10,432 nt of DNA. It comes from an uncultured Bacilli bacterium. GTDB lineage: Bacteria; Bacillota_I; Bacilli_A; RF39; UBA660. The translations under genes were made by a program, and so were the position numbers. The DNA lies in the NCBI GenBank assembly GCA_947598455.1, contig CANQFI010000055.1:1-10432 (forward strand), read 5' to 3'. The notes under the pieces are model-generated. The model made no database searches and had not been told where the DNA came from. It saw nothing but the letters and a program-made list of their open reading frames with translations. Shown here piece after piece: positions 9 through 10,347 of this stretch; positions within the stretch are counted from its first letter, which is position 1, and each line of letters starts with the position of its first letter.

Positions 9-986
9 TCACTTTTTATTTACTAAGAATGATATAAGTAATTGAGGATTTTCATCATTCATAACAATTTTATATATTAAATCGATTATAGGCATTTTAA
101 TTTTTTTATGTTTGATTAGTTTATAGATACTTTTTAATGTATAGTAGCCTTCGACGGTATTATTTTGTAAATGTTTTTCTTTTTCTTCTTTGGTAGCACC
201 AGCTCCTATTACATAGCCAAATGAAAAATTACGACTTTTTGTTGATGTACAAGTTAGTAATAAATCACCAACACCGGCGAATGATGTTATTGTTTTAGGA
301 TTACCACCTAATGCTGCAATTAAGTTTTTAATATCATTTAAAGCTTCAGTAATCAGGAAACTTTGAGTTGATTCAGGATAACCCATACCATCTAGCATAC
401 CAGCAGCAACGGCAATAACGTTTTTAATACTACCACATATTTGAACACCAATTAAATCATTAGTGTCACGTAATTTTAAGGTGTCGTTTTCTAAAACTTC
501 TTTAATACATCTTATGGCTTTTTTGCTATGAGAGGCGATTGATAAACCAACAGGATTATTGTAAGCCATATCGATAGCAAATGAAGGACCAGATATAATA
601 GCGATATGTTTTATTTTTAAAGTTTCAAAAGCTATATCGCTTAAGAAAGAACAAGAGTTGTTTTCAATACCTTTAGAAGCAATACAGACAATGGTTTTTT
701 TATTTATGTATGGTTTTATAGAACGACAGATGGATCCGACATAAGCTGCAGTTGATGTTATAAAGATAATATCAGTATTTTGACAAGCTTTTTCATAATC
801 CATAGTTAATTTAATATTTTTAGGAGTATCGAAGTTAGGTATTAAGCCATCAATATAACCTTTTTCTTTATAGTTATTGTATCTTTCTTCTGATTCAGTC
901 CACATTATGATATTTTTATTTTTTTTACTTAGTGCACTGGCAATAGCAAGACCATAAACTCCGGTACCTATTAGAGCAATTTTCAT
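9..986 (-). CDS. gpsA: NAD(P)-dependent glycerol-3-phosphate dehydrogenase
   Basis: This cytosolic enzyme reduces dihydroxyacetone phosphate to sn-glycerol 3-phosphate, the backbone for phospholipid synthesis. The 325-residue protein is close to the usual family length. Visible motifs: the N-terminal nucleotide-binding GTGVYGLA (residues 7-14), ASKG with K105, SGPSFA (132-137), the catalytic lysine K188 in GSIKNV, D241 in GVGDLLLTC, and the phosphate-binding SRN (251-253). The stretch around 205-216 (ESTQSFLITEAL) departs from the common NTKAALITRGL, and Y11 replaces the usual small residue or Trp of the loop. The start ATG shares one base with the rarA stop (TAATG), and the ribosome binding site AAAGGTGG lies in the last rarA codons, so translation is coupled. 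It ends in TGA at the left edge and the operon may continue outside the window. The family assignment is firm. Confidence 0.95.
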   Translation of the reverse strand: MKIALIGTGVYGLAIASALSKKNKNIIMWTESEERYNNYKEKGYIDGLIPNFDTPKNIKLTMDYEKACQNTDIIFITSTAAYVGSICRSIKPYINKKTIVCIASKGIENNSCSFLSDIAFETLKIKHIAIISGPSFAIDMAYNNPVGLSIASHSKKAIRCIKEVLENDTLKLRDTNDLIGVQICGSIKNVIAVAAGMLDGMGYPESTQSFLITEALNDIKNLIAALGGNPKTITSFAGVGDLLLTCTSTKSRNFSFGYVIGAGATKEEKEKHLQNNTVEGYYTLKSIYKLIKHKKIKMPIIDLIYKIVMNDENPQLLISFLVNKK

Positions 987-2185
987 TATTTTCCACCTTT
1001 CATTTCTTCATGTAGTTTATTTAAATTTTGTTCGTATTTGTTATTTTTAGGATGATAGTATTTTTTATTTTTAATATTATCAGGAAGATATTGTTGTTTA
1101 ACCCAAGAATTAGGATAATCATGAGGATATTTGTAGAGAGGACTATTAGTTTTAATATGAGCTGGTAAGTTACCAGTTGTTCCTTTTTCAATATCACTTA
1201 AAGCTTCATCTAAAGCAAGATGAGCACTATTACTTTTAGGGCTTAGGGCCATTTCGGCAACAATTGTTCCTAAAGGAATACGGGCTTCGGGAAGACCAAC
1301 TAGCTCTGAAGCATGTATGGCAGCCATTACTTTGGGGCCAATTCCAGGATTGGCAAGACCAATATCTTCATAAGCAATTACACTTAAACGACGATAGATA
1401 CTATCTAAGTCACCTTCGGCGATTAATCTTCCAAGATAATGAAGTGATGCATCAACATCAGAACCGCGAATTGATTTTTGGAGTCCTGATAAAACATCAT
1501 AGTGACCATCTTCATCAGCATCAGCAAAGAAAATGGCTTTAGAATTAACATTTGTTACAGCTTCTATAGTAACATGTTTATCTGTTGTACCATAATAAGC
1601 TACTTCAAGTAAATTAATAGCGCTACGCATGTCGCCACTACATAATTTAGCAATAGTAAAAAGAGCTTCATCATCTATTTTAATACCACTTAAATATTTA
1701 CAGGCACGTATTAAACCTTCTTTGATATTAGCAATGGTAAGCTCTTTTAATTCAAATATTTGACAACGACTTCTAATAGCGGGATTTATTTTATGATAAG
1801 GATTTGAAGTAGTCATTCCTATAAGAGTTATTAAACCATTTTCAATATATGGTAGTAGCAAATCTTGTTTATCTTTATTTAAACGATGAATTTCATCCAT
1901 AATAACAATCATTTCACCATTCATTTTAGCTTCTTCAATGACGATATCAAAATCTTGTTTATTATTAATTGTCGCATTTAACATACGATATGGTTTATTA
2001 ATCGTATTAGCTATGGCACAAGCAATTGAGGTCTTACCAATACCTGGTTTACCATAAAGTATCATACTTACAAGATGATTATTTAAAACTAAATTACGAA
2101 GTATTTTATTCGGACCTACTAAATGTTCTTGACCAATTATATCGTCTAAAGTTTGAGGCCTTAATTTGTCGGCAAGTATTTCCAT
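986..2185 (-). CDS. rarA: RarA/MgsA-family AAA+ replication-recombination ATPase
   Basis: RarA (MgsA in E. coli, related to eukaryotic WRNIP1) is a clamp-loader-like AAA+ ATPase that acts at stalled replication forks. Residues seen: Walker A GKPGIGKT (45-52), Walker B IVIMDEIHR (93-101), sensor 1 TTSNP (125-129), and the arginine-finger region AIRSRC (136-141). Next come a sensor 2 region with GDMRSAINLLE, and the family's C-terminal signature with KSIRGSD, YEDIGLANP and a PHDYPNSW-type end. The 399 residues are slightly short for the family (about 420-450) but complete. AGGTG sits 5 bases before the ATG. It is the first gene of an operon with gpsA; the shared operon suggests no known functional link. 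Overlapping plus-strand frames are shadows. Confidence 0.94.
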   Translation of the reverse strand: MEILADKLRPQTLDDIIGQEHLVGPNKILRNLVLNNHLVSMILYGKPGIGKTSIACAIANTINKPYRMLNATINNKQDFDIVIEEAKMNGEMIVIMDEIHRLNKDKQDLLLPYIENGLITLIGMTTSNPYHKINPAIRSRCQIFELKELTIANIKEGLIRACKYLSGIKIDDEALFTIAKLCSGDMRSAINLLEVAYYGTTDKHVTIEAVTNVNSKAIFFADADEDGHYDVLSGLQKSIRGSDVDASLHYLGRLIAEGDLDSIYRRLSVIAYEDIGLANPGIGPKVMAAIHASELVGLPEARIPLGTIVAEMALSPKSNSAHLALDEALSDIEKGTTGNLPAHIKTNSPLYKYPHDYPNSWVKQQYLPDNIKNKKYYHPKNNKYEQNLNKLHEEMKGGK

Positions 2186-2266: not shown

Positions 2267-3169
2267 ATGAAAGAAGAATATATTCCTAGTACTTATATAA
2301 ATAAGTATATGGAGTATTTAGAATATGAAAGAAAATTATCTAGTAATACTTTAAAAAGTTATTTAAATGATTTAAAAGACTTTGATGTGTATTTTAAAGG
2401 TAATTTATTAAATTTAAAGTATGATGACATCCAAAAATATATTGGTTCTTTAAATGATCGTGTTGCAAGGACGGTATCACATTATCTTACAGTTATTAAT
2501 TCTTTTTATGAGTTTTTACTTAATGAAGGAATAATAAATGATAATCCTTGTAGTAATATTGCTTCACCTAAAGTACCTAAGAAATTGCCTACTTACTTAA
2601 CAGAAGAAGAAGTAGATAAATTACTTAATATTAATTTAGTTACACCTTATGATTATCGTAATAAAGCAATGTTAGAATTATTATATGCAACGGGTTTACG
2701 TATTTCGGAATTAGTTAATTTAAAAATAACTGATATTGATGTAAATAATTCTCTTATTAGAGTCTTTGGTAAAGGCAAAAAAGAAAGAATTGTTCCTGTT
2801 ACGGATTTAGCTTTAGAATATTTAAGAGTTTATGTTACACAGTATCGTAATGTTATATTAAAAGATAAGGTTTCAGATTATTTATTTATTTCTAATAGTT
2901 TAACTAATATAAGTAGACAAGGATTTTTTAAGATAATAAAAAAAGAATGTAAAAGAGCAGGGATTGAAAAAAATGTTTCTCCTCATGTTCTTAGACATTC
3001 TTTTGCCACACATTTACTTAAACATGGTGCTGATTTAAGAGTTATTCAAGAACTATTAGGTCATGAAGATATTTCAACGACACAAATATATGCTCATTTA
3101 GTAAATGAAAAATTAAAAGAAGATTATGAATATCATCCAAGAAATAAAATTTATAAGGAGGATTTATGA
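2267..3169 (+). CDS. xerD: XerD-type tyrosine recombinase
   Basis: This is a site-specific tyrosine recombinase of the XerC/XerD family, which resolves chromosome dimers at dif in concert with FtsK. At 300 residues it has the family's typical length. Residues 10-90 form the N-terminal SAM-like core-binding domain, and the catalytic domain follows from about 108. All catalytic positions are present: R145 (ATGLRISE), K169 (GKGKKER), H240 and R243 (HVLRHSFATH), H266 (LLGHEDIS) and the nucleophile Y275 (TQIYAHL). GGGTGG lies 6 bases before the ATG. A candidate dif site lies 1.7 kb downstream, which supports a chromosomal housekeeping role over a phage or transposon integrase. XerD is preferred to XerC from the overall motif set, but the two cannot be cleanly separated without alignment. 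It ends in TGA, two codons before the next start in the same frame. Confidence 0.88.
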   Translation: MKEEYIPSTYINKYMEYLEYERKLSSNTLKSYLNDLKDFDVYFKGNLLNLKYDDIQKYIGSLNDRVARTVSHYLTVINSFYEFLLNEGIINDNPCSNIASPKVPKKLPTYLTEEEVDKLLNINLVTPYDYRNKAMLELLYATGLRISELVNLKITDIDVNNSLIRVFGKGKKERIVPVTDLALEYLRVYVTQYRNVILKDKVSDYLFISNSLTNISRQGFFKIIKKECKRAGIEKNVSPHVLRHSFATHLLKHGADLRVIQELLGHEDISTTQIYAHLVNEKLKEDYEYHPRNKIYKEDL

Positions 3170-4025: not shown

Positions 4026-4808
4026 ATGGAAAATGATGGTATTTTTGAATATTTTATTATTTTATTAATAATATATATTATGATAAATTTATATCCATTG
4101 ATTATTACAAGTATTGCTGGGCTAGGGGCGATGCTTGGTAACTTATTTTTATTTATTAATAAGAAATATAAAAATAATATTTTAGCTTTTGCTTTGGGTT
4201 TATCTAGTTCAGTAATGTTTTTAATATCAGTAATTGAATTAATACCAGAAGGATTATTACTTATTAGTAGGGAGGTTAACTATTTAGTATTACTTTTTTA
4301 TTCTTTGGCTTTACTAGTAATAGGGTATATCTTAGTCTTATTTATTGATAAAAGAATAGAAAGTAATGATAAATTATATAAAATTGGTATTTTAAGTGCG
4401 ATTAGTTTATTAATACATAATATACCAGAGGGGATAATATGTGCAGTAACTAGTTATAGTAATATAGATTTGGGTTTAAAAATGAGTTTTATTATAATGG
4501 TTCATAATATTACGGAGGGAATAGCGATTTGTTTACCGATTTATTATGCAACTAATAGTAAATTAAAAGCTATATTAATTACCCTATTAAGTGCAATGGG
4601 GGAGGTATTAGGAGCGTTATTTACAATGTTGTTTTTAAGACCATTTATTAATAATTTTATGTTATATATTATTCTTTTGATTACAGCGGGAATTATGATT
4701 AGTTTGAGCTTAGGAAAAATATTTAAAGAAGGATTAAGTTTAAAAAAATATTTGTATTTTATGATGGGAATTATTATTGGCTCAATAATAGTAGTGTTTA
4801 CTTTATAA
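4026..4808 (+). CDS. ZIP-family metal transporter (ZupT/GufA-like)
   Basis: An integral membrane divalent-metal importer of the ZIP family (zinc, iron or manganese; the ion cannot be told from sequence). The 260 residues form about eight hydrophobic segments. Metal-site signatures are intact: ELIPEG in TM2 (E71, E75), HNIPEG in TM4 (H131, N132, E135), HNITEG in TM5 (H160, N161, E164), and E193 in GEVLGAL of TM6. The His-rich cytoplasmic loop of many ZIPs is absent. The start is uncertain: ATG 4026 has only a weak AGAAAAG upstream. M19 (ATG at 4080) would begin right at the family's first transmembrane helix but also lacks a ribosome binding site. It is transcribed alone and closed by a hairpin terminator. 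Confidence 0.9.
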   Translation: MENDGIFEYFIILLIIYIMINLYPLIITSIAGLGAMLGNLFLFINKKYKNNILAFALGLSSSVMFLISVIELIPEGLLLISREVNYLVLLFYSLALLVIGYILVLFIDKRIESNDKLYKIGILSAISLLIHNIPEGIICAVTSYSNIDLGLKMSFIIMVHNITEGIAICLPIYYATNSKLKAILITLLSAMGEVLGALFTMLFLRPFINNFMLYIILLITAGIMISLSLGKIFKEGLSLKKYLYFMMGIIIGSIIVVFTL

Positions 4809-4849: not shown

Positions 4850-4877
4850 GGTTAACATAAGATATATTATACGAAGA
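4850..4877 (-). other. dif: candidate dif site (XerC/XerD recombination site)
   Basis: Read on the minus strand the 28 bp are TCTTCGTATAA (4877-4867), TATATC (4866-4861) and TTATGTTAACC (4860-4850). The Firmicutes dif consensus as I recall it is ACTTCCTATAA, TATATA, TTATGTAAACT; matches are 9/11, 5/6 and 9/11, in total 23/28. The inner XerD arm TTATGTTAA is identical to the one I recall for E. coli dif. The location fits: it is just past a terminator, in a gene-free region, where plus-strand and minus-strand gene blocks converge, near a xerD-like gene. The consensus is from memory and no genome-wide skew can be computed here. Confidence 0.75.
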
Positions 4878-5044
4878 TAAGTTATTTGGAAATTGTTGGT
4901 TTTATTATAAGGTTTTATCTTAATTATTTTATCATATATTGTATATTAAGTTGTTATTATTTTATATTTTTAAAATAATATAATATAAAATTGATAATTT
5001 AATTTATAAATTTATTTTTTTATATTCTAACATTTGTTCGTTTT

Positions 5045-5074
5045 TTTATATATTGTTTATTTTATAAATATAAT
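5045..5074 (+). promoter_or_regulatory. possible promoter upstream of the repeat array
   Basis: TTTATA (5045-5050) lies 18 bases before a perfect TATAAT (5069-5074), placing a transcription start at about 5080-5082, exactly where the first repeat unit begins. The -35 matches only 4 of 6 positions, and TATAAT arises easily in DNA this AT-rich, so support is weak. Confidence 0.3.
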
Positions 5075-5078
5075 TAAT

Positions 5079-5405
5079 ATTAGGCATTGAGATTTGTTTA
5101 GATGATATCTTCTTTATCTTATGGAATTCATTAATGTTTAAAATTAGGCATCGAGATCTATTTAGATGATATCTTCTTCACTTCGTGGAATTTGTTATTG
5201 TTTAAATTAGGAATCGAGTTTTATTTATGTGATTAGTTAATCATCTCAAGTTTAATTATTTTAAGACGTATTAGAGATGATTTATAAATTTTTTGATAGT
5301 TTAGATTAAATTAGATGTTTTGGTTAGATAAGCGTTTTAAAAATAGGAATCGAGAATTAAAAAGATGATAAGCTAATCATCTCGTGGAATCTTTTAAATA
5401 TAGTT
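5079..5405 (+). repeat. degenerate tandem array, period about 64 bp
   Basis: Units begin ATTAGGCATTGAG (5079), ATTAGGCATCGAG (5143), ATTAGGAATCGAG (5206) and AATAGGAATCGAG (5342). Steps are 64, 63 and 136 bases; a weakly matching ATTAGAGATGA at 5270 fills the missing position. The first two units are about 80% alike across their length. Each unit carries a hairpin around AGATGAT; the clearest is AGATGAT (5363-5369) with ATCATCT (5376-5382). Units 2 and 4 share CGTGGAAT near the end. No convincing reading frame runs through the array. Confidence 0.75.
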
Positions 5406-5449
5406 TATATTTTTATATAGGAAAAGGGGAGTTGCTCCCCTATTTTTTT
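5080..5449 (+). ncRNA. possible noncoding RNA covering the repeat array
   Basis: A strong plus-strand terminator ends at 5449 with no gene upstream of it for 600 bases, beyond a first terminator at 4836. A transcript must therefore start between them if this terminator has a purpose. A weak promoter near 5045-5074 would give an RNA of about 370 bases made of the repeat units and their hairpins. This is inference from layout; it matches no RNA family that I recognise. Confidence 0.35.
5425..5449 (+). terminator. strong intrinsic terminator without an upstream gene
   Basis: AGGGGAG (5425-5431) pairs with CTCCCCT (5435-5441) around the loop TTG, followed by A and seven T (5443-5449). It is the most GC-rich hairpin in the window. 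The T run lies on the plus-strand side only, so it serves rightward transcription out of the repeat region. Confidence 0.8.
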
Positions 5450-5630
5450 ATTTCGATGAAGAGGGGACTTTAATTTTTCATAATATAGATATTTTTAGAT
5501 TTAATTAATTTTTAATTTATTTATATATTATTTTGCTTTTGTTCTAATTTATTAATATTGATAATTATATTTATATTATTAGAAATTGAAATTAAGATAT
5601 GTTTATACTTGATATTTAAATTGTTGATTC
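5450..5630. other. gene-free AT-rich stretch
   Basis: Nothing convincing is seen here. An open minus-strand frame runs through part of it but has no start codon or ribosome binding site. Confidence 0.5.
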
Positions 5631-5660
5631 CCCCTACTTTATTACTTATTATAATAGGGG
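5631..5660. repeat. inverted repeat CCCCTA/TAGGGG
   Basis: CCCCTA (5631-5636) and TAGGGG (5655-5660) form a 6-bp GC-rich stem over an AT-rich loop. Neither side has a proper T run, so it is not a classical terminator. It may stabilise the 3' end of the HTH transcript if termination at 5661-5690 leaks. Confidence 0.4.
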
Positions 5661-5690
5661 AAAAATAAAAGAAAGGATTAAACCTTTCTT
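5661..5690 (-). terminator. terminator overlapping the 3' end of the HTH gene
   Basis: On the minus strand AAGAAAGG (5690-5683) pairs with CCTTTCTT (5676-5669) around TTTAAT, followed by a T-rich tail (TTATTTTT). The stop codon of the HTH gene lies in the loop, and the last codons form half of the stem. Confidence 0.75.
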
Positions 5691-6445
5691 GATTGAATTT
5701 CAGCTATTTTTTCAAATACTTCAGCAGCATTTGATTCATTAATCTCTGTATAACCTAATTCTTTTAATGCTTGAATCTTAATAGTATTTAATTGTTGAGT
5801 ACGAGATAATTTTTCTTCATTTTTTTGCTCAATTTCTTGAACGAATCTCTTATGTGATTCAGCTAATTTACTACGAGAAGCACCACCATTATTATATAAG
5901 GTTAAGGCTGAATATAAAATACCTTCAAAAATAAATTGTTTATCTTCTTGGAATTTATATTCTTCAGGATTAGTAAAGCCGGTTGTTTTACTCATATAAC
6001 CAAAAATATATTTTATTTCTGGTACATTATCTAGTGATTGGAGTAAATGATATAAATATAATATCGCATAATAGTTCTCCTCTTTACTATCGTTACTTAA
6101 TTTTTCTTTTAATAAATATGTAATATCACTTAATAAAACTTGTGATTCTTTATTTAAGCCTTTAAAGTCAAATTGGCTTTCAAATTCACTAGCATTTTTT
6201 ACTTCTTGATTTAAACGACTCTCGACGTTCATTAAATAATCAGTAGTAATATTTATATTATCTATATCTTTACTATCAGTTATATCTAAAAGTTTAAATA
6301 ATAGTAATTTTTTTTCTTTTGGCCATTTATTAATATCATTAAGTTCTAAGTAGTTATAGACCATTTGACGAGAAACACCTAAGTATTTAGCAAGTCTTAC
6401 TTTAGATATCCCTAATTCTTGAAATAGTTCATTTAATTTACGCAT
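5678..6445 (-). CDS. HTH-domain DNA-binding regulator
   Basis: A 255-residue protein with an N-terminal Cro/C1-type helix-turn-helix: residues 12-33 read as helix 2 (ISKVRLAKYLG) and the recognition helix (SRQMVYNYLEL). The rest (about 65-255) looks all-helical, with a charged, possibly coiled-coil segment at 200-235, and has no enzyme motif that I recognise. It probably forms an oligomerisation or sensing domain. AAAGGAA lies 9 bases before the ATG. The gene has its own consensus promoter and its own terminator, so it is a single-gene unit behind the four-gene AAA+ operon. Palindromes on its promoter suggest autoregulation. Whether it also controls the upstream operon is unknown; the operators do not look identical. 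Confidence 0.85.
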   Translation of the reverse strand: MRKLNELFQELGISKVRLAKYLGVSRQMVYNYLELNDINKWPKEKKLLLFKLLDITDSKDIDNINITTDYLMNVESRLNQEVKNASEFESQFDFKGLNKESQVLLSDITYLLKEKLSNDSKEENYYAILYLYHLLQSLDNVPEIKYIFGYMSKTTGFTNPEEYKFQEDKQFIFEGILYSALTLYNNGGASRSKLAESHKRFVQEIEQKNEEKLSRTQQLNTIKIQALKELGYTEINESNAAEVFEKIAEIQSRKV

Positions 6446-6522: not shown

Positions 6523-6549
6523 AAAAAACTAGTTATTTTTTAACTAGTT
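6523..6549 (-). terminator. terminator of the AAA+ operon
   Basis: AACTAGTTA and TAACTAGTT form a 9-bp stem (6541-6549 with 6527-6535) around five unpaired bases. On the minus strand it runs into T6. The stop codon of the ATPase gene overlaps the stem. Confidence 0.8.
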
Positions 6550-8044
6550 ATTGTTTTTTTGAGGCATTAATTGCTCTTTCTTGCCCCCATTTTCTAATAT
6601 AATTTATTTTTTCGGGATTTGATTTAGATAAGGAAACTACTCTTGATAATTCATTAATTATTAAGTCTTCTGATAAAGTTAATTCTTTATTAGCAATTAA
6701 TTTATAAGCAATCGATCTAATAGTTGCTTCAATATCAGCACTTGCAAAACCTTCGGTTATAGATACTAATTGGTTTAGAAGGTTTTCTCCTAGTTCAACT
6801 TTTAAATATTTTCTGGCATAAAGTTTTAGAAGTTCTAAACGTTCTTTATGATTTGGTAGATCAACAAAGAATATTTCGTCAAAACGACCTTTTCTTACTA
6901 ATTCTGGTGGTAGTGAATCAATACTATTGGCTGAAGCGATAACAAAAACAGGTTTTTTGCATTCTTGTAACCAGAAAAGGAATTGACCAATCATTTTGGA
7001 AGTTACACTTGAGTGCGAATCGTTTAGTCCTTTTTCAATTTCATCAATCCATAAGACACATGGTGAAACATATTCAGCAGTGTCTAGAGCTTGTTTTAGT
7101 TGACGTTCTGATTGACCAACATATTCGCCTTGAATTGTTGCTAAATCAAGACGATATAAAGGAATATTAAAGATATTGGCAGTAGCTTTAGAACATAAAC
7201 TTTTACCACAACCTGGTACTCCTGTAAGCAATATTCCTCTTGGAGATGCTACTCCCCTCTTCTTTAATTCTTCTTTTTTAGTAGGATCCATTAAAATTTT
7301 CTTTTCATATAACCATTCTTTTAAATTGTCTAGACCGGCGATTTCAAAATCATCTTCTATAGGAATTGATTCTAAACCAATAATATCATTAAATAATGTT
7401 TGTTTAGAAAATTTTAATTCTTTTAAATCTTCTTTGGCAATTGTTCCATTTACTATTAAAGAAGAAATAATATTTTTTATTTCCATTTCACTTAAACCTT
7501 GAAGATAAGTAGCAGCATTTTTATAATCGATTTCATCCCATGAAACAGTTATTTGATTACTATATGGTTTGATGGTCTTTTTAATTACTTCTAAGACTTC
7601 TTCTTCATTTGGAAAACTTAGATTAAGACTTACTCCTAATCTTTCGATATTTGGCCATACTGGATCATTAGTAATAATAATTATGACACCAGACATTTTT
7701 TCAGCTTTTTCAACAATATTTAATAAATATCTTGAAATAATGGTTGATTCATTAATATCTGATATATCACTTAAGATAAAATTAAAATTTTCTTTATATT
7801 TTAATTCATTAGCTAAAGTATCTAAAGCACTCATAATGGTTTTATCTTCGCTAATAACGGTATTAGTTTCTAGATCAGTAATACCTGTAGACATTTCATA
7901 TAAATTAAATTTATTATTTGTTTCTTTAGCAACTTCACTAATTAATCTTAAAGAACGATTCTTTTCAATTGTTTTTAAGATAATTACGGGGATTCTAGCT
8001 TTTAAATATCTAGTTAAATAGTCCTTTATTTCATTATAATTCAT
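6548..8044 (-). CDS. Ycf46-like AAA+ ATPase
   Basis: A 498-residue protein with two parts. Residues 1-215 resemble the degenerate N-terminal P-loop-like domain of Ycf46 proteins ([15 protein letters not shown] near 16-30, where Ycf46 has a P-type strand and T-EE-R) and lack a Walker A. Residues 235-480 form an intact AAA+ module: Walker A GVPGCGKS (275-282), pore-loop-like YVGQSE (308-313), Walker [10 protein letters not shown] (330-338), sensor 1 N373, arginine-finger region VRKGRFDE (383-390) and sensor 2 GFASADIE (432-439). The DNLKEWL and [11 protein letters not shown] phrases are typical of Ycf46. It should be an active hexameric remodelling ATPase, substrate unknown. Its start overlaps the end of the 148-residue gene by 11 bases, with GGAGAG before the ATG. 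It is the last gene of the operon. Confidence 0.88.
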
Positions 8045-8480
8045 TGTTATCTCTCCATTTTATTTTATTATTATTAATTGTTAAAGTCATATTGCCTTTA
8101 GGATCAACATTATTAGCTTTTTTAAGTAAAATATCATATGTATGATTAGTTTCATCTTTAATTAATTTAATTAATTCAATTTTTTTATCAGTAGTTAAAA
8201 TATTTAAGTTAATCATTTCTAATAAATAATTTATTTCTTTTTTAAAATTAACTAATATTAAGTCTAGATAATTAACATCATCAAAGATACTATATAAATC
8301 TACTTTAATTTTTTTTATCGATTCACTAAATTTATACTTGATTAGTTCAATATATTTAGGAATAAGCATTTCTTGAATATTAGTATTTATAGGGGTATTT
8401 TTTAATTCATTTAATGTTTCGATATTATAAGTAGAAGTTTTTAATTTATTAAATATATTTAAATACTCTTCATAATTCAT
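8034..8480 (-). CDS. helical 148-residue protein of the AAA+ operon, unknown
   Basis: Not recognised. The protein is rich in Lys, Asn, Ile and Leu and appears all-helical over residues 1-122. A short beta-like tail ([18 protein letters not shown]) follows and carries its only tryptophan. No signal peptide, membrane segment or catalytic motif is visible, so it is probably cytosolic, perhaps an adaptor for the ATPase. GAGG lies 7 bases before the ATG. The start overlaps the stop of the 59-residue gene (ATGA), and the end overlaps the start of the ATPase gene by 11 bases. Such double coupling suggests fixed stoichiometry with its neighbours. Confidence 0.8.
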   Translation of the reverse strand: MNYEEYLNIFNKLKTSTYNIETLNELKNTPINTNIQEMLIPKYIELIKYKFSESIKKIKVDLYSIFDDVNYLDLILVNFKKEINYLLEMINLNILTTDKKIELIKLIKDETNHTYDILLKKANNVDPKGNMTLTINNNKIKWRDNNEL

Positions 8481-8656
8481 TTTTGGCCTCTATTAATTTT
8501 TAATGGTGGTTCGATAGACCATTCTGGTAAAGTAGTTATTACTTCTTTACTGAGATCATTTTTATTTGTTTCCTTATAATTGGGAATTTTTTTAATATCT
8601 TTAATTTTTTTAATACTAGGTATTTCTTCTTTAATTAAGTTTATTTGCTTTTTCAT
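8477..8656 (-). CDS. 59-residue operon peptide, unknown
   Basis: This short gene fills the otherwise unexplained 180 bases between its neighbours. ATG 8656-8654 is preceded by GGAGA with 8 bases' spacing, located in the last codons of the 555-residue gene, only 4 bases after that gene's stop. It ends in TGA overlapping the next ATG (ATGA). The product begins with a Lys/Ile-rich half (KKIKDIKKIP, residues 16-25) and ends with a tryptophan- and proline-containing tail, LPEWSIEPPLKINR (43-56). It is probably unstructured with a linear binding motif. Start site, spacing and overlap on both sides argue that it is real. No family is recognised. Confidence 0.72.
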   Translation of the reverse strand: MKKQINLIKEEIPSIKKIKDIKKIPNYKETNKNDLSKEVITTLPEWSIEPPLKINRGQK

Positions 8657-8660
8657 ATGT

Positions 8661-10328
8661 TTAGTCTCCTATTATAATATTTCTTTCATTATTACTAGTT
8701 ACATAGTTATCAGTATCTAAATTATTGATAAAAACTATAAGTTCTTCAAAACGTAATTCATCTTCTTTTAACATATTAATGTAATCGACTGTTTGAGCTA
8801 ATATTTTTTCTAGACTAGTTAAATAATTTGTTCTTAATTTATTCTTTTCAATAGTTCTTAAATGATTGCGACGATTTAATTTATAAAATAAAATGATATT
8901 ACCAAGAATTATTACAATAATTAAAATTGTACTTAATAAACGATTATTTAAAGTTATGAATATACCAATAATACCAATTATATTTATGATAAGAAGAATT
9001 ACTATTAAATCTTTATCTTCTGAATCAAATTCATTATTTAAGTATAATTCTAAATCTTCTTTTATTTCATTTAAATTTGTACCATCAGTGGTCTTAGTTG
9101 TAAATTTATCTATTTTAATAGTAAATGGTTCAGTATTTATAGTTTCTTTCGTCTTATTTAAGGCTTCAATTAGATAGTTTTTAACAAGAGAAATAGCTAT
9201 TTTAATAGTTTCATTACTTACTTTATAATGCTCTTTGTAGATAACTATATTGGTTAATAAACTAAATAAATCTTGCTTATTATTAATAGCATTTTCTTCT
9301 TTTTTATATAATTCAGTAGCTTTTTTAGTATCGCCATTACAGGCAATAATTAATTGATTTTTTAAATTATCATTTTGATATATTTGTTCTTTTTCTTCAT
9401 ATTCATATATTAAGTCTGATAAGATTTCTTCGATCTTTTTATTGGATTTTTCACTATATATTAAGTTATCTAAGTAATTATGGAGTGGAACATATGTTGA
9501 AGTGATTTTAAGATTTCTTTTTAAAATATTGATATCTGGACTATAATTTTCTAAATGAGGCATAGAAATATTAGTTGCTTCATACTTAGAGATAAAATCT
9601 TGCCATAATGTTATTTGTTTATCTTTGATATGTTTTTCATTTTTTAATCTTTTAAACCATTCTGCTACTTTATTAAAGATTAATTCTTTAGCTTCATCAC
9701 CATAAGCACCAGTTGCTATTAAATCTAATATTACAATAAAGTTTTTATCTAATTCTAAGGGAGACTCACTATCTAGATAATTTTGTAACCAATGAATTGA
9801 TGGATTGATACGATTTAGTTTTAAATTAATTAGAGAGAAAAAGATGGAAGTTTTAGCAGGATCTTTTTTTAAAGCATTTAAAACTTCTTTAGTAGTATTT
9901 TCTTTGTCGTTATTTAACCATGAAATTAAGGCTGCTAAGGCATTAGATAACCAATAGTTAGGATTTTTTAATAATATTTCTTCACGAAGATTTAAAATAT
10001 AGGCTTTATTAATTTGAGATGATTCAAGAGCTTCTAATAAAGATTCAGTAGTTCTTCTAACATCGTCATAATAACCATATTTTTTTTCGATCAAAGCATT
10101 ATTATACATAATAGCTTGACGAGCATTAGAAATAATCGTTGTTTCTCTTATTTCTTTTACTAAACCTTTTACTTCAGAATTTAAATCCTCGACTCTTTCT
10201 TGAACTTTATTGACTTCATTATTAACGGAATTAACATTAGTTATAACACCAGTTAATTCATTGGCTACAGCACCTAAATTCTTTTCTATTGTATCTAAGT
10301 TAGCGGCACTTATTGTTAATGCTTCCAT
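8661..10328 (-). CDS. membrane-anchored coiled-coil/TPR-like protein, unknown
   Basis: First gene of the AAA+ operon, not recognised by name. I choose the ATG at 10328 (555 residues). An upstream in-frame GTG at 10337 gives 558 residues, but that GTG is itself part of the ribosome binding site AGAGGTG (10341-10335), which sits 6 bases before the ATG. In 558-residue numbering: 12-68 is a coiled coil with heptad-like Leu/Val spacing. Residues 75-200 are helical hairpins resembling TPR repeats (for example NYWLSNALAAL near 127 and ALKKDP near 155). Residues 200-440 are further helices. Residues 444-462 and 467-486 are two transmembrane helices, and 490-540 is a charged helical tail. There is no signal peptide, so both ends should face the cytosol. 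It could recruit the ATPase to the membrane. Confidence 0.85.
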   Translation of the reverse strand: MEALTISAANLDTIEKNLGAVANELTGVITNVNSVNNEVNKVQERVEDLNSEVKGLVKEIRETTIISNARQAIMYNNALIEKKYGYYDDVRRTTESLLEALESSQINKAYILNLREEILLKNPNYWLSNALAALISWLNNDKENTTKEVLNALKKDPAKTSIFFSLINLKLNRINPSIHWLQNYLDSESPLELDKNFIVILDLIATGAYGDEAKELIFNKVAEWFKRLKNEKHIKDKQITLWQDFISKYEATNISMPHLENYSPDINILKRNLKITSTYVPLHNYLDNLIYSEKSNKKIEEILSDLIYEYEEKEQIYQNDNLKNQLIIACNGDTKKATELYKKEENAINNKQDLFSLLTNIVIYKEHYKVSNETIKIAISLVKNYLIEALNKTKETINTEPFTIKIDKFTTKTTDGTNLNEIKEDLELYLNNEFDSEDKDLIVILLIINIIGIIGIFITLNNRLLSTILIIVIILGNIILFYKLNRRNHLRTIEKNKLRTNYLTSLEKILAQTVDYINMLKEDELRFEELIVFINNLDTDNYVTSNNERNIIIGD

Positions 10329-10347
10329 AGTATACACCTCTATTGTT

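Follow-up and report, generated by a model that had tools for sequence, protein, structure and literature searches.

A Probable Terminus Module of xerD, dif and a Helix-Turn-Helix Gene, with a Companion Dyad Element, in Uncultured Bacilli

Introduction

In a stretch of 10,432 nucleotides from an uncultured Bacilli bacterium (contig CANQFI010000055.1 of assembly GCA_947598455.1, referred to here as the window), two blocks of genes converge on a 28-bp sequence at 4850–4877, which raised the question whether this sequence is the dif site of the chromosome and which further components belong to it. As judged from its sequence, its uniqueness, the GC skew and its gene linkage, the site is almost certainly a chromosomal dif, the site in the terminus region on which XerC and XerD act to resolve dimeric chromosomes. 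Sequence comparison with relatives further points, with high confidence, to a conserved module at the terminus, in which xerD and a gene for a helix-turn-helix (HTH) protein, designated hth, face dif from both sides. In part of the order, the module is accompanied by one to five copies of a nested-dyad element, of which the closest is separated from dif by about 185 bp and is mostly found on the side of the XerC arm. The best explanation of the locus as a whole is a dif site with an accessory complex, combining Xer site, terminus module and protein-bound element, to which we assign a probability of about 0.6. The element and the HTH gene beside dif go beyond the original prediction for this DNA, which had been a claim on dif.

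Identification of the dif Site

On the minus strand, the 28-mer reads TCTTCGTATAA-TATATC-TTATGTTAACC, with the XerC arm at 4867–4877, the 6-bp centre at 4861–4866 and the XerD arm at 4850–4860, which is the layout of XerCD dif sites. The arms were assigned by analogy with the Firmicutes dif consensus. A match to this consensus at 23 positions had been claimed, and the recount gave the same value (23/28, the runner-up in the window reaching 19); to the B. subtilis site, 22 of the 28 positions are identical. None of 100 first-order simulations of the window contained a match of at least 23, the maximum being 22, which was obtained once. With a matrix built from the sites of relatives and leaving the window out, the site scored 35.0 and the runner-up 6.8.

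Relatives were collected by a scan with XerD, from which the best 80 of 256 loci were used. Nearly all of these come from assemblies labelled as uncultured Bacilli, Tenericutes or Erysipelotrichaceae, with one from Candidatus Coprovivens excrementavium and one from Candidatus Aphodocola; their order is named RF39 in GTDB. The assemblies are mostly metagenomic, and contig ends hide some arrangements. The strict dif pattern was identified at 52 of the 80 loci, always on the 3′ side of xerD and at a distance of 0.67 to 9.0 kb. In 38 of 40 whole genomes it occurs exactly once, compared to a reversed control pattern found in 5 of the 40. A second set of 40 genomes contained it in 28 cases (once in 27, twice in one), and a panel of 117 genomes of the order in 76 (once in 72, twice in four; reversed control in nine). 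One dif per chromosome is normally what the relatives show, the remaining genomes being without a match of the strict form. In the order panel, where the comparison with xerD took in 114 of the 117 genomes, 64 pairs of dif and xerD share a contig, at 0.6–14 kb and with a median of 1,975 bp. A better 28-mer elsewhere, or a lack of conservation in close relatives, had been named as points on which the prediction could fail, and in the relatives it held on both of them.

In 7 of 53 sequences (L028, L034, L059, L060, L065, L067 and L068), dif is flipped relative to xerD, with xerD and hth still pointing to it. At L030:14029 and L034:6463, the directions of dif relative to xerD are opposite and the flank on the XerD-arm side is the same; an element may have been inserted at or beside dif at these two loci. 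The flipped loci were considered as a sign of skew polarity, an idea that was dropped since a plus-to-minus switch reads alike on either strand.

GC Skew at dif

The plus strand of the window was said to carry an excess of G at 4861–5640, and a recount gave 100 G and 48 C in this interval; the cumulative G−C maximum of the window lies at 5626, about 0.75 kb from dif. Among 46 sequences with at least 2 kb on each side, the window included, the skew drops across dif in 45, L024 being the exception, and a strict change from plus to minus was identified in 32. From one relative, G020, a contig of 1,256,952 bp was sampled in 20 stretches. The skew was +0.17 to +0.24 in seven stretches between 1 and 390 kb, +0.07 in the 16 kb directly left of dif, and −0.22 to −0.39 in ten stretches from dif (426 kb) to 1,032 kb; at a resolution of 2 kb, the sign changes at dif itself. 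The parS cluster of this contig, at 1,037 kb of 1,257 kb, is nearly opposite dif. Beyond it, a skew of +0.20 was obtained at 1,110 kb, as expected past the origin, and an unexplained value of −0.09 at 1,200 kb.

The check on the skew extremum, proposed for the whole genome and carried out here in relatives, came out as predicted, and the candidate dif site is supported by match, near-uniqueness, skew and linkage. The further statement that it marks a replication terminus is borne out in so far as the skew switches at dif in the relatives. "Terminus region" is the safer wording, because the skew shift has been described as close to the point of fork termination without coinciding with it exactly (PMC3025954).

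Recombinases and Gene Organization

The gene at 2267–3169 on the plus strand, originally noted as xerD-like, was confirmed as xerD (TIGR02225, 339.2 bits at a cut-off of 329.6). At least two integrase matches were found in all 27 genomes searched; in two of these (G008 and G010) the second integrase is weak, and no clearly XerC-like second protein was identified there. Of three genomes checked, G003 and G006 have a second Xer protein above the XerC cut-off, and in G001 it reached 332.4 at a cut-off of 335.15. With XerD encoded beside dif and XerC elsewhere, the system is therefore an XerCD/dif system, and the XerD-type and XerC-type proteins and the 28-bp site are not those of a single-recombinase module with XerS or XerH. 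A chromosomal dif normally depends on control by FtsK (PMC11724359). No ftsK-like motif was found in about 2.15 Mb of locus sequence, which consists of loci and not of whole genomes.

The layout of the window is as it had been described, with plus-strand genes up to 4808 and minus-strand genes from 5678 converging on the site; the exception is formed by gpsA and rarA, which lie to the left and are encoded on the minus strand. In the relatives, the position of gpsA/rarA beside xerD is a conserved arrangement, and rarA/mgsA (986–2185, minus strand) is the divergent neighbour of xerD in most of them. A gene for a ZIP-type metal transporter (4026–4808, plus strand) is frequent between xerD and dif, yet not constant.

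The Linked HTH Gene

The hth gene (5678–6445, minus strand), with its 3′ end facing dif, is the conserved gene beyond dif and codes for a protein of 255 amino acids, in which a lambda-repressor-like HTH at the N-terminus is followed by a helical part. It was identified in 114 of the 117 genomes of the order, in single copy apart from one weak second match. At the five closest loci with hth, its product is more alike (93–98%) than XerD (80–88%) or RarA (85–91%). The strict pattern gave 80 dif matches in the 76 genomes; 69 of these are on one contig with hth, and in all 69 pairs the 3′ end of hth is directed toward dif. The gap between them has a median of 467 bp and a maximum of 11.9 kb, with 60 of the 69 within 1.5 kb and 61 below 1.6 kb. 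The 11 unpaired matches comprise four second matches and seven with dif and hth on different contigs. In 56 of 58 cases dif is located between xerD and hth, and the two genes are convergent in 78 of 80. Larger distances between hth and dif were found in G158 (about 8 kb), G142 (12 kb) and G124 (16 kb), and in G068 and G070 hth is found beside dif although the distance to xerD is about 30 kb and 48 kb, respectively. G068 contains two full-length copies of hth, at C2:59740 and C38:6319, of which one adjoins dif.

The 3′ side of hth was examined in 37 of the 38 genomes which contain hth and lack the strict dif pattern. A dif-like site of at least 15 bits in the matrix was present in 30 of the 37, the maximum in five shuffles of each being 12.9; the seven without a passing site include two short contig ends. 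Beyond the order, a search of 149 genomes of the class gave 17 strong hth matches, all of them in members of the order panel, and eight weak ones; in these eight genomes the hth-like gene shares no contig with a dif match, and one of them has no dif match at all.

For the HTH protein of the window, a named family was sought and not assigned: it is below every cut-off of Pfam and NCBIfam, with weak HTH matches only, and gave weak matches in PHROGs and PADLOC. General HTH families are matched at E <= 0.01 by 36–38 of 42 members of the hth family. A convincing sequence relative was not found in the PDB. In the predicted fold, residues 1–65 form a lambda-repressor-type HTH, and for the helical remainder no clear relative was found. 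With Foldseek, the whole model gave nothing at E <= 0.001 in the PDB or in the viral library, and neither did the C-terminal part alone in the PDB (model pTM 0.43 and 0.52). The fold matches listed are mostly lambda-type HTH proteins; RTP and MatP are absent among them, which excludes nothing. At L014, L022, L024, L025, L031 and L042, the gap between dif and hth holds, as judged by eye, about 1 kb of differing, partly coding-looking DNA, which would fit repeated gene insertion.

The Companion Element

Four copies of a 54-nt nested-dyad unit form an array (5079–5395, plus strand) in the interval that separates dif from hth in the window. They are located at 5079–5132, starting 201 bp from dif, and at 5143–5196, 5206–5259 and 5342–5395, the last being the best of the four (E 7.6e-13) and a training copy of the model. 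For an alignment, 37 copies were taken from eleven sequences, namely the window and ten loci, after five of 42 regex matches had been dropped as out of register or doubtful. This alignment is nearly free of gaps, with near-constant spacing. The arms of the dyad change together, since 68.4% of the cells are complementary, compared to 35–46% in slid versions, and 13 of 18 pairs have changes on both sides. In 2 of 500 shuffles the cells paired were equally high, a control which gives no probability. The dyad structure was drawn from some of the same copies. Many copies of the window type have a broken outer arm.

A first model (R1) was used to search 17 whole genomes, with the best 150 first-look candidates scored per genome. 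It gave 47 matches at E <1e-3, of which 43 are beside dif and four in parS clusters. The majority of the 43 had served to train the model, whereas the copies of G015, G018, G020, G022 and G031 had not. G014 was without a match in this search, and G005 had one at E 0.08. At E <= 1e-3, the element was found in 22 of 53 loci (18 of 21 in a first set and 4 of 32 in a second). In these 22 loci, 54 of 55 copies are at most 650 bp from dif, the exception being at 6.6 kb in L048; the distance of the nearest copy to dif is 138–253 bp at 20 loci, and at 21 this copy is on the XerC-arm side. Copies of one array are mostly oriented alike, with one opposed copy in L001, and the direction varies between clades.

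A second model (R2), built from 60 copies and applied with stricter filters to the 117 genomes, gave 30 matches in 24 genomes, 4 of the 30 being training copies. Within 2 kb of dif are 25 of them, 24 at 13–439 bp and one at 2.0 kb, with 17 on the XerC-arm side and 8 on the XerD-arm side. The others comprise one in the parS cluster of G020, one at a contig end of G064, about 1 kb from hth, and three elsewhere with neither dif nor parS near. In G120, G124 and G158, the element match led to a previously unrecognised dif 199–319 bp away; in G124 and G158, dif had been missed within about 6 kb of hth and was then located through the element. In most of the distant genomes the element was missed, which may be due to divergence, to the limited number of candidates scored or to true absence.

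Copies of the Element at parS

In 21 of 22 genomes searched, parS matches were present, in one short cluster each. For G001, G002, G003 and G006, the only R1 match away from dif at E <1e-3 lies inside this cluster, near gyrA, tadA and dnaX, with genome-wide values from 1.6e-7 to 4.2e-4. With R1, the element was found between parS sites in 6 of the 21 clusters examined, two of them weakly; in searches of 98 kb, E was 1e-8 to 2.4e-5 for L195–L198, 2.8e-4 for L199 and 0.015 for L207. The other 15 clusters had no element inside at that level. The weak copy between the parS sites of G013 has an E of 0.015 in 98 kb. In G020, the parS copy gave an E of 0.0039 with R1, another match away from dif being better (0.0023). 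With R2, which had been trained without this copy, its E was 2.6e-4. Several genomes among L202–L217 show, by eye, a sequence near parS between gyrA-like and tadA/dnaX-like genes that resembles the SRP RNA.

Possible Role of the Element and the HTH Protein

For the element, an accessory role in Xer recombination was considered because its position resembles that of the accessory sequence beside the XerC site of plasmids. Such accessory sequences have been described for plasmid Xer sites (PMC11724359), which need about 200 bp of sequence adjoining the XerC site; in cer, an ArgR box is located 98 bp from the XerC site (PMC2409434, PMC11724359). The copies of the element would be bound by a protein with sequence specificity, and the chances that this is the HTH protein encoded beside dif are about even. 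The bound element would then form a nucleoprotein complex next to dif. By analogy with ArgR and PepA at cer, this complex might favour recombination between the two dif sites of one dimer, or otherwise control the sister termini, a step that is put forward tentatively. With hth in 114 and the element in 24 of the 117 genomes, the pairing of protein and element is therefore a putative one, and the copy in the parS clusters does not fit a purely accessory function in Xer recombination.

These parS copies bring in the main rival explanation, according to which the element is bound by a chromosome-organising protein, the HTH protein or another one, at both ends of the replichores. Such a protein might, for example, have SMC/ParB at parS as well as the terminus as its targets, or control both regions jointly. 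XerD of B. subtilis has been reported also to unload SMC at the terminus (PMC12322038), which would be in keeping with an origin-terminus role of the parS copies. In four genomes the sole match away from dif at E <1e-3 is between parS sites, and G020 and, weakly, G013 have further copies there. However, the element is present in 6 of 21 parS clusters, in two of them weakly, and copies at dif are commoner and more numerous, and we regard this explanation as doubtful. A further reading is a dedicated terminus system in an order of gut Bacilli. In it, the HTH protein would bind nested-dyad sites located at a distance of about 185 bp to dif and, in some lineages, within the parS cluster, marking both the origin centromere and the site of dimer resolution and thereby coupling resolution to segregation; this is considered unlikely.

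If the HTH protein were instead an ordinary regulator without a role at the terminus, the order rarA-xerD-dif-hth would have been kept by descent, and the linkage of rarA, and often of the ZIP gene, would be consistent with this. Against it, 61 of 69 dif-hth gaps are below 1.6 kb, hth is beside dif with xerD far off in G068 and G070, and the sequence that separates dif from hth varies among relatives, which makes plain synteny a quite improbable account. Dyad sites at the skew switch and beside the gene of a DNA-binding protein also recall a fork trap, in which the HTH protein bound to the array would block forks near dif; RTP dimers occupy two half-sites of ter (PMC10331603). Yet the copies are mostly one-way within an array, in a direction that depends on the clade, copies are also present in parS clusters and, as weak evidence, no RTP family is among the protein matches of the window, so that a fork trap is very unlikely. 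A similarly low probability is given to a structured RNA, a terminator or a mobile repeat. The dyads have hairpin potential, and a terminator-like hairpin is visible by eye after the array at about 5425–5450. But the two Rfam matches in the window are both below their gathering scores, RNAalifold found no consensus pair on the 37 copies, which led to the rejection of an RNA family, and the element occurs in both orientations; across the 17 genomes, all matches at E <1e-3 are at dif or parS. The accessory complex at dif is proposed as the preferred reading.

Comparison to Known Systems

Compared to the XerCD/dif systems of Firmicutes and E. coli, the 28-bp site with arm, centre and arm, its normally single occurrence, the skew switch and the two recombinases are the same; here, in contrast, xerD is 0.6–14 kb from dif, an HTH gene is linked and part of the order has a companion element. 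With XerS/difSL and XerH/difH, the module shares a recombinase gene near its own site (PMC5357621), but it differs in having two recombinases, a 28-bp site of the XerCD type and a TIGR02225-type XerD. As in cer and psi, where ArgR or ArcA and PepA act, an element resembling a protein site is present within about 250 bp and mostly on the XerC-arm side, whereas here it is chromosomal, the dyad has another sequence and the protein is a candidate only. RTP/ter and MatP/matS likewise link a DNA-binding protein to the terminus, a link which here consists of gene position only; the protein in question has a lambda-repressor-like HTH, and the element is beside dif and, in some genomes, at parS. In the open-licence literature, no description of the HTH protein, of the element or of the linkage of xerD, dif and hth was found. 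The conserved element at its set distance from dif, the near-universal protein encoded beside it and the parS copies would provide a testable case of protein-marked termini in Bacilli, and would offer a handle for finding dif in draft genomes.

Further Observations in the Window

To the right of hth, a minus-strand cassette at 6548–10337 codes for an AAA ATPase, for two small proteins and for a protein of 558 amino acids that may contain a membrane segment. The ATPase matches phrog_8638 and has a weaker similarity to IetA. The right-hand genes were considered as a mobile element on the basis of the phrog_8638 match, which was rejected, the cassette being limited to closer relatives while hth persists; only in these relatives does it adjoin hth. 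Between dif and the array, at 5030–5040, the motif ACATTTGTTCG was noticed by eye, also in L001, L002, L003, L006 and L007, and half of it resembles a LexA box.
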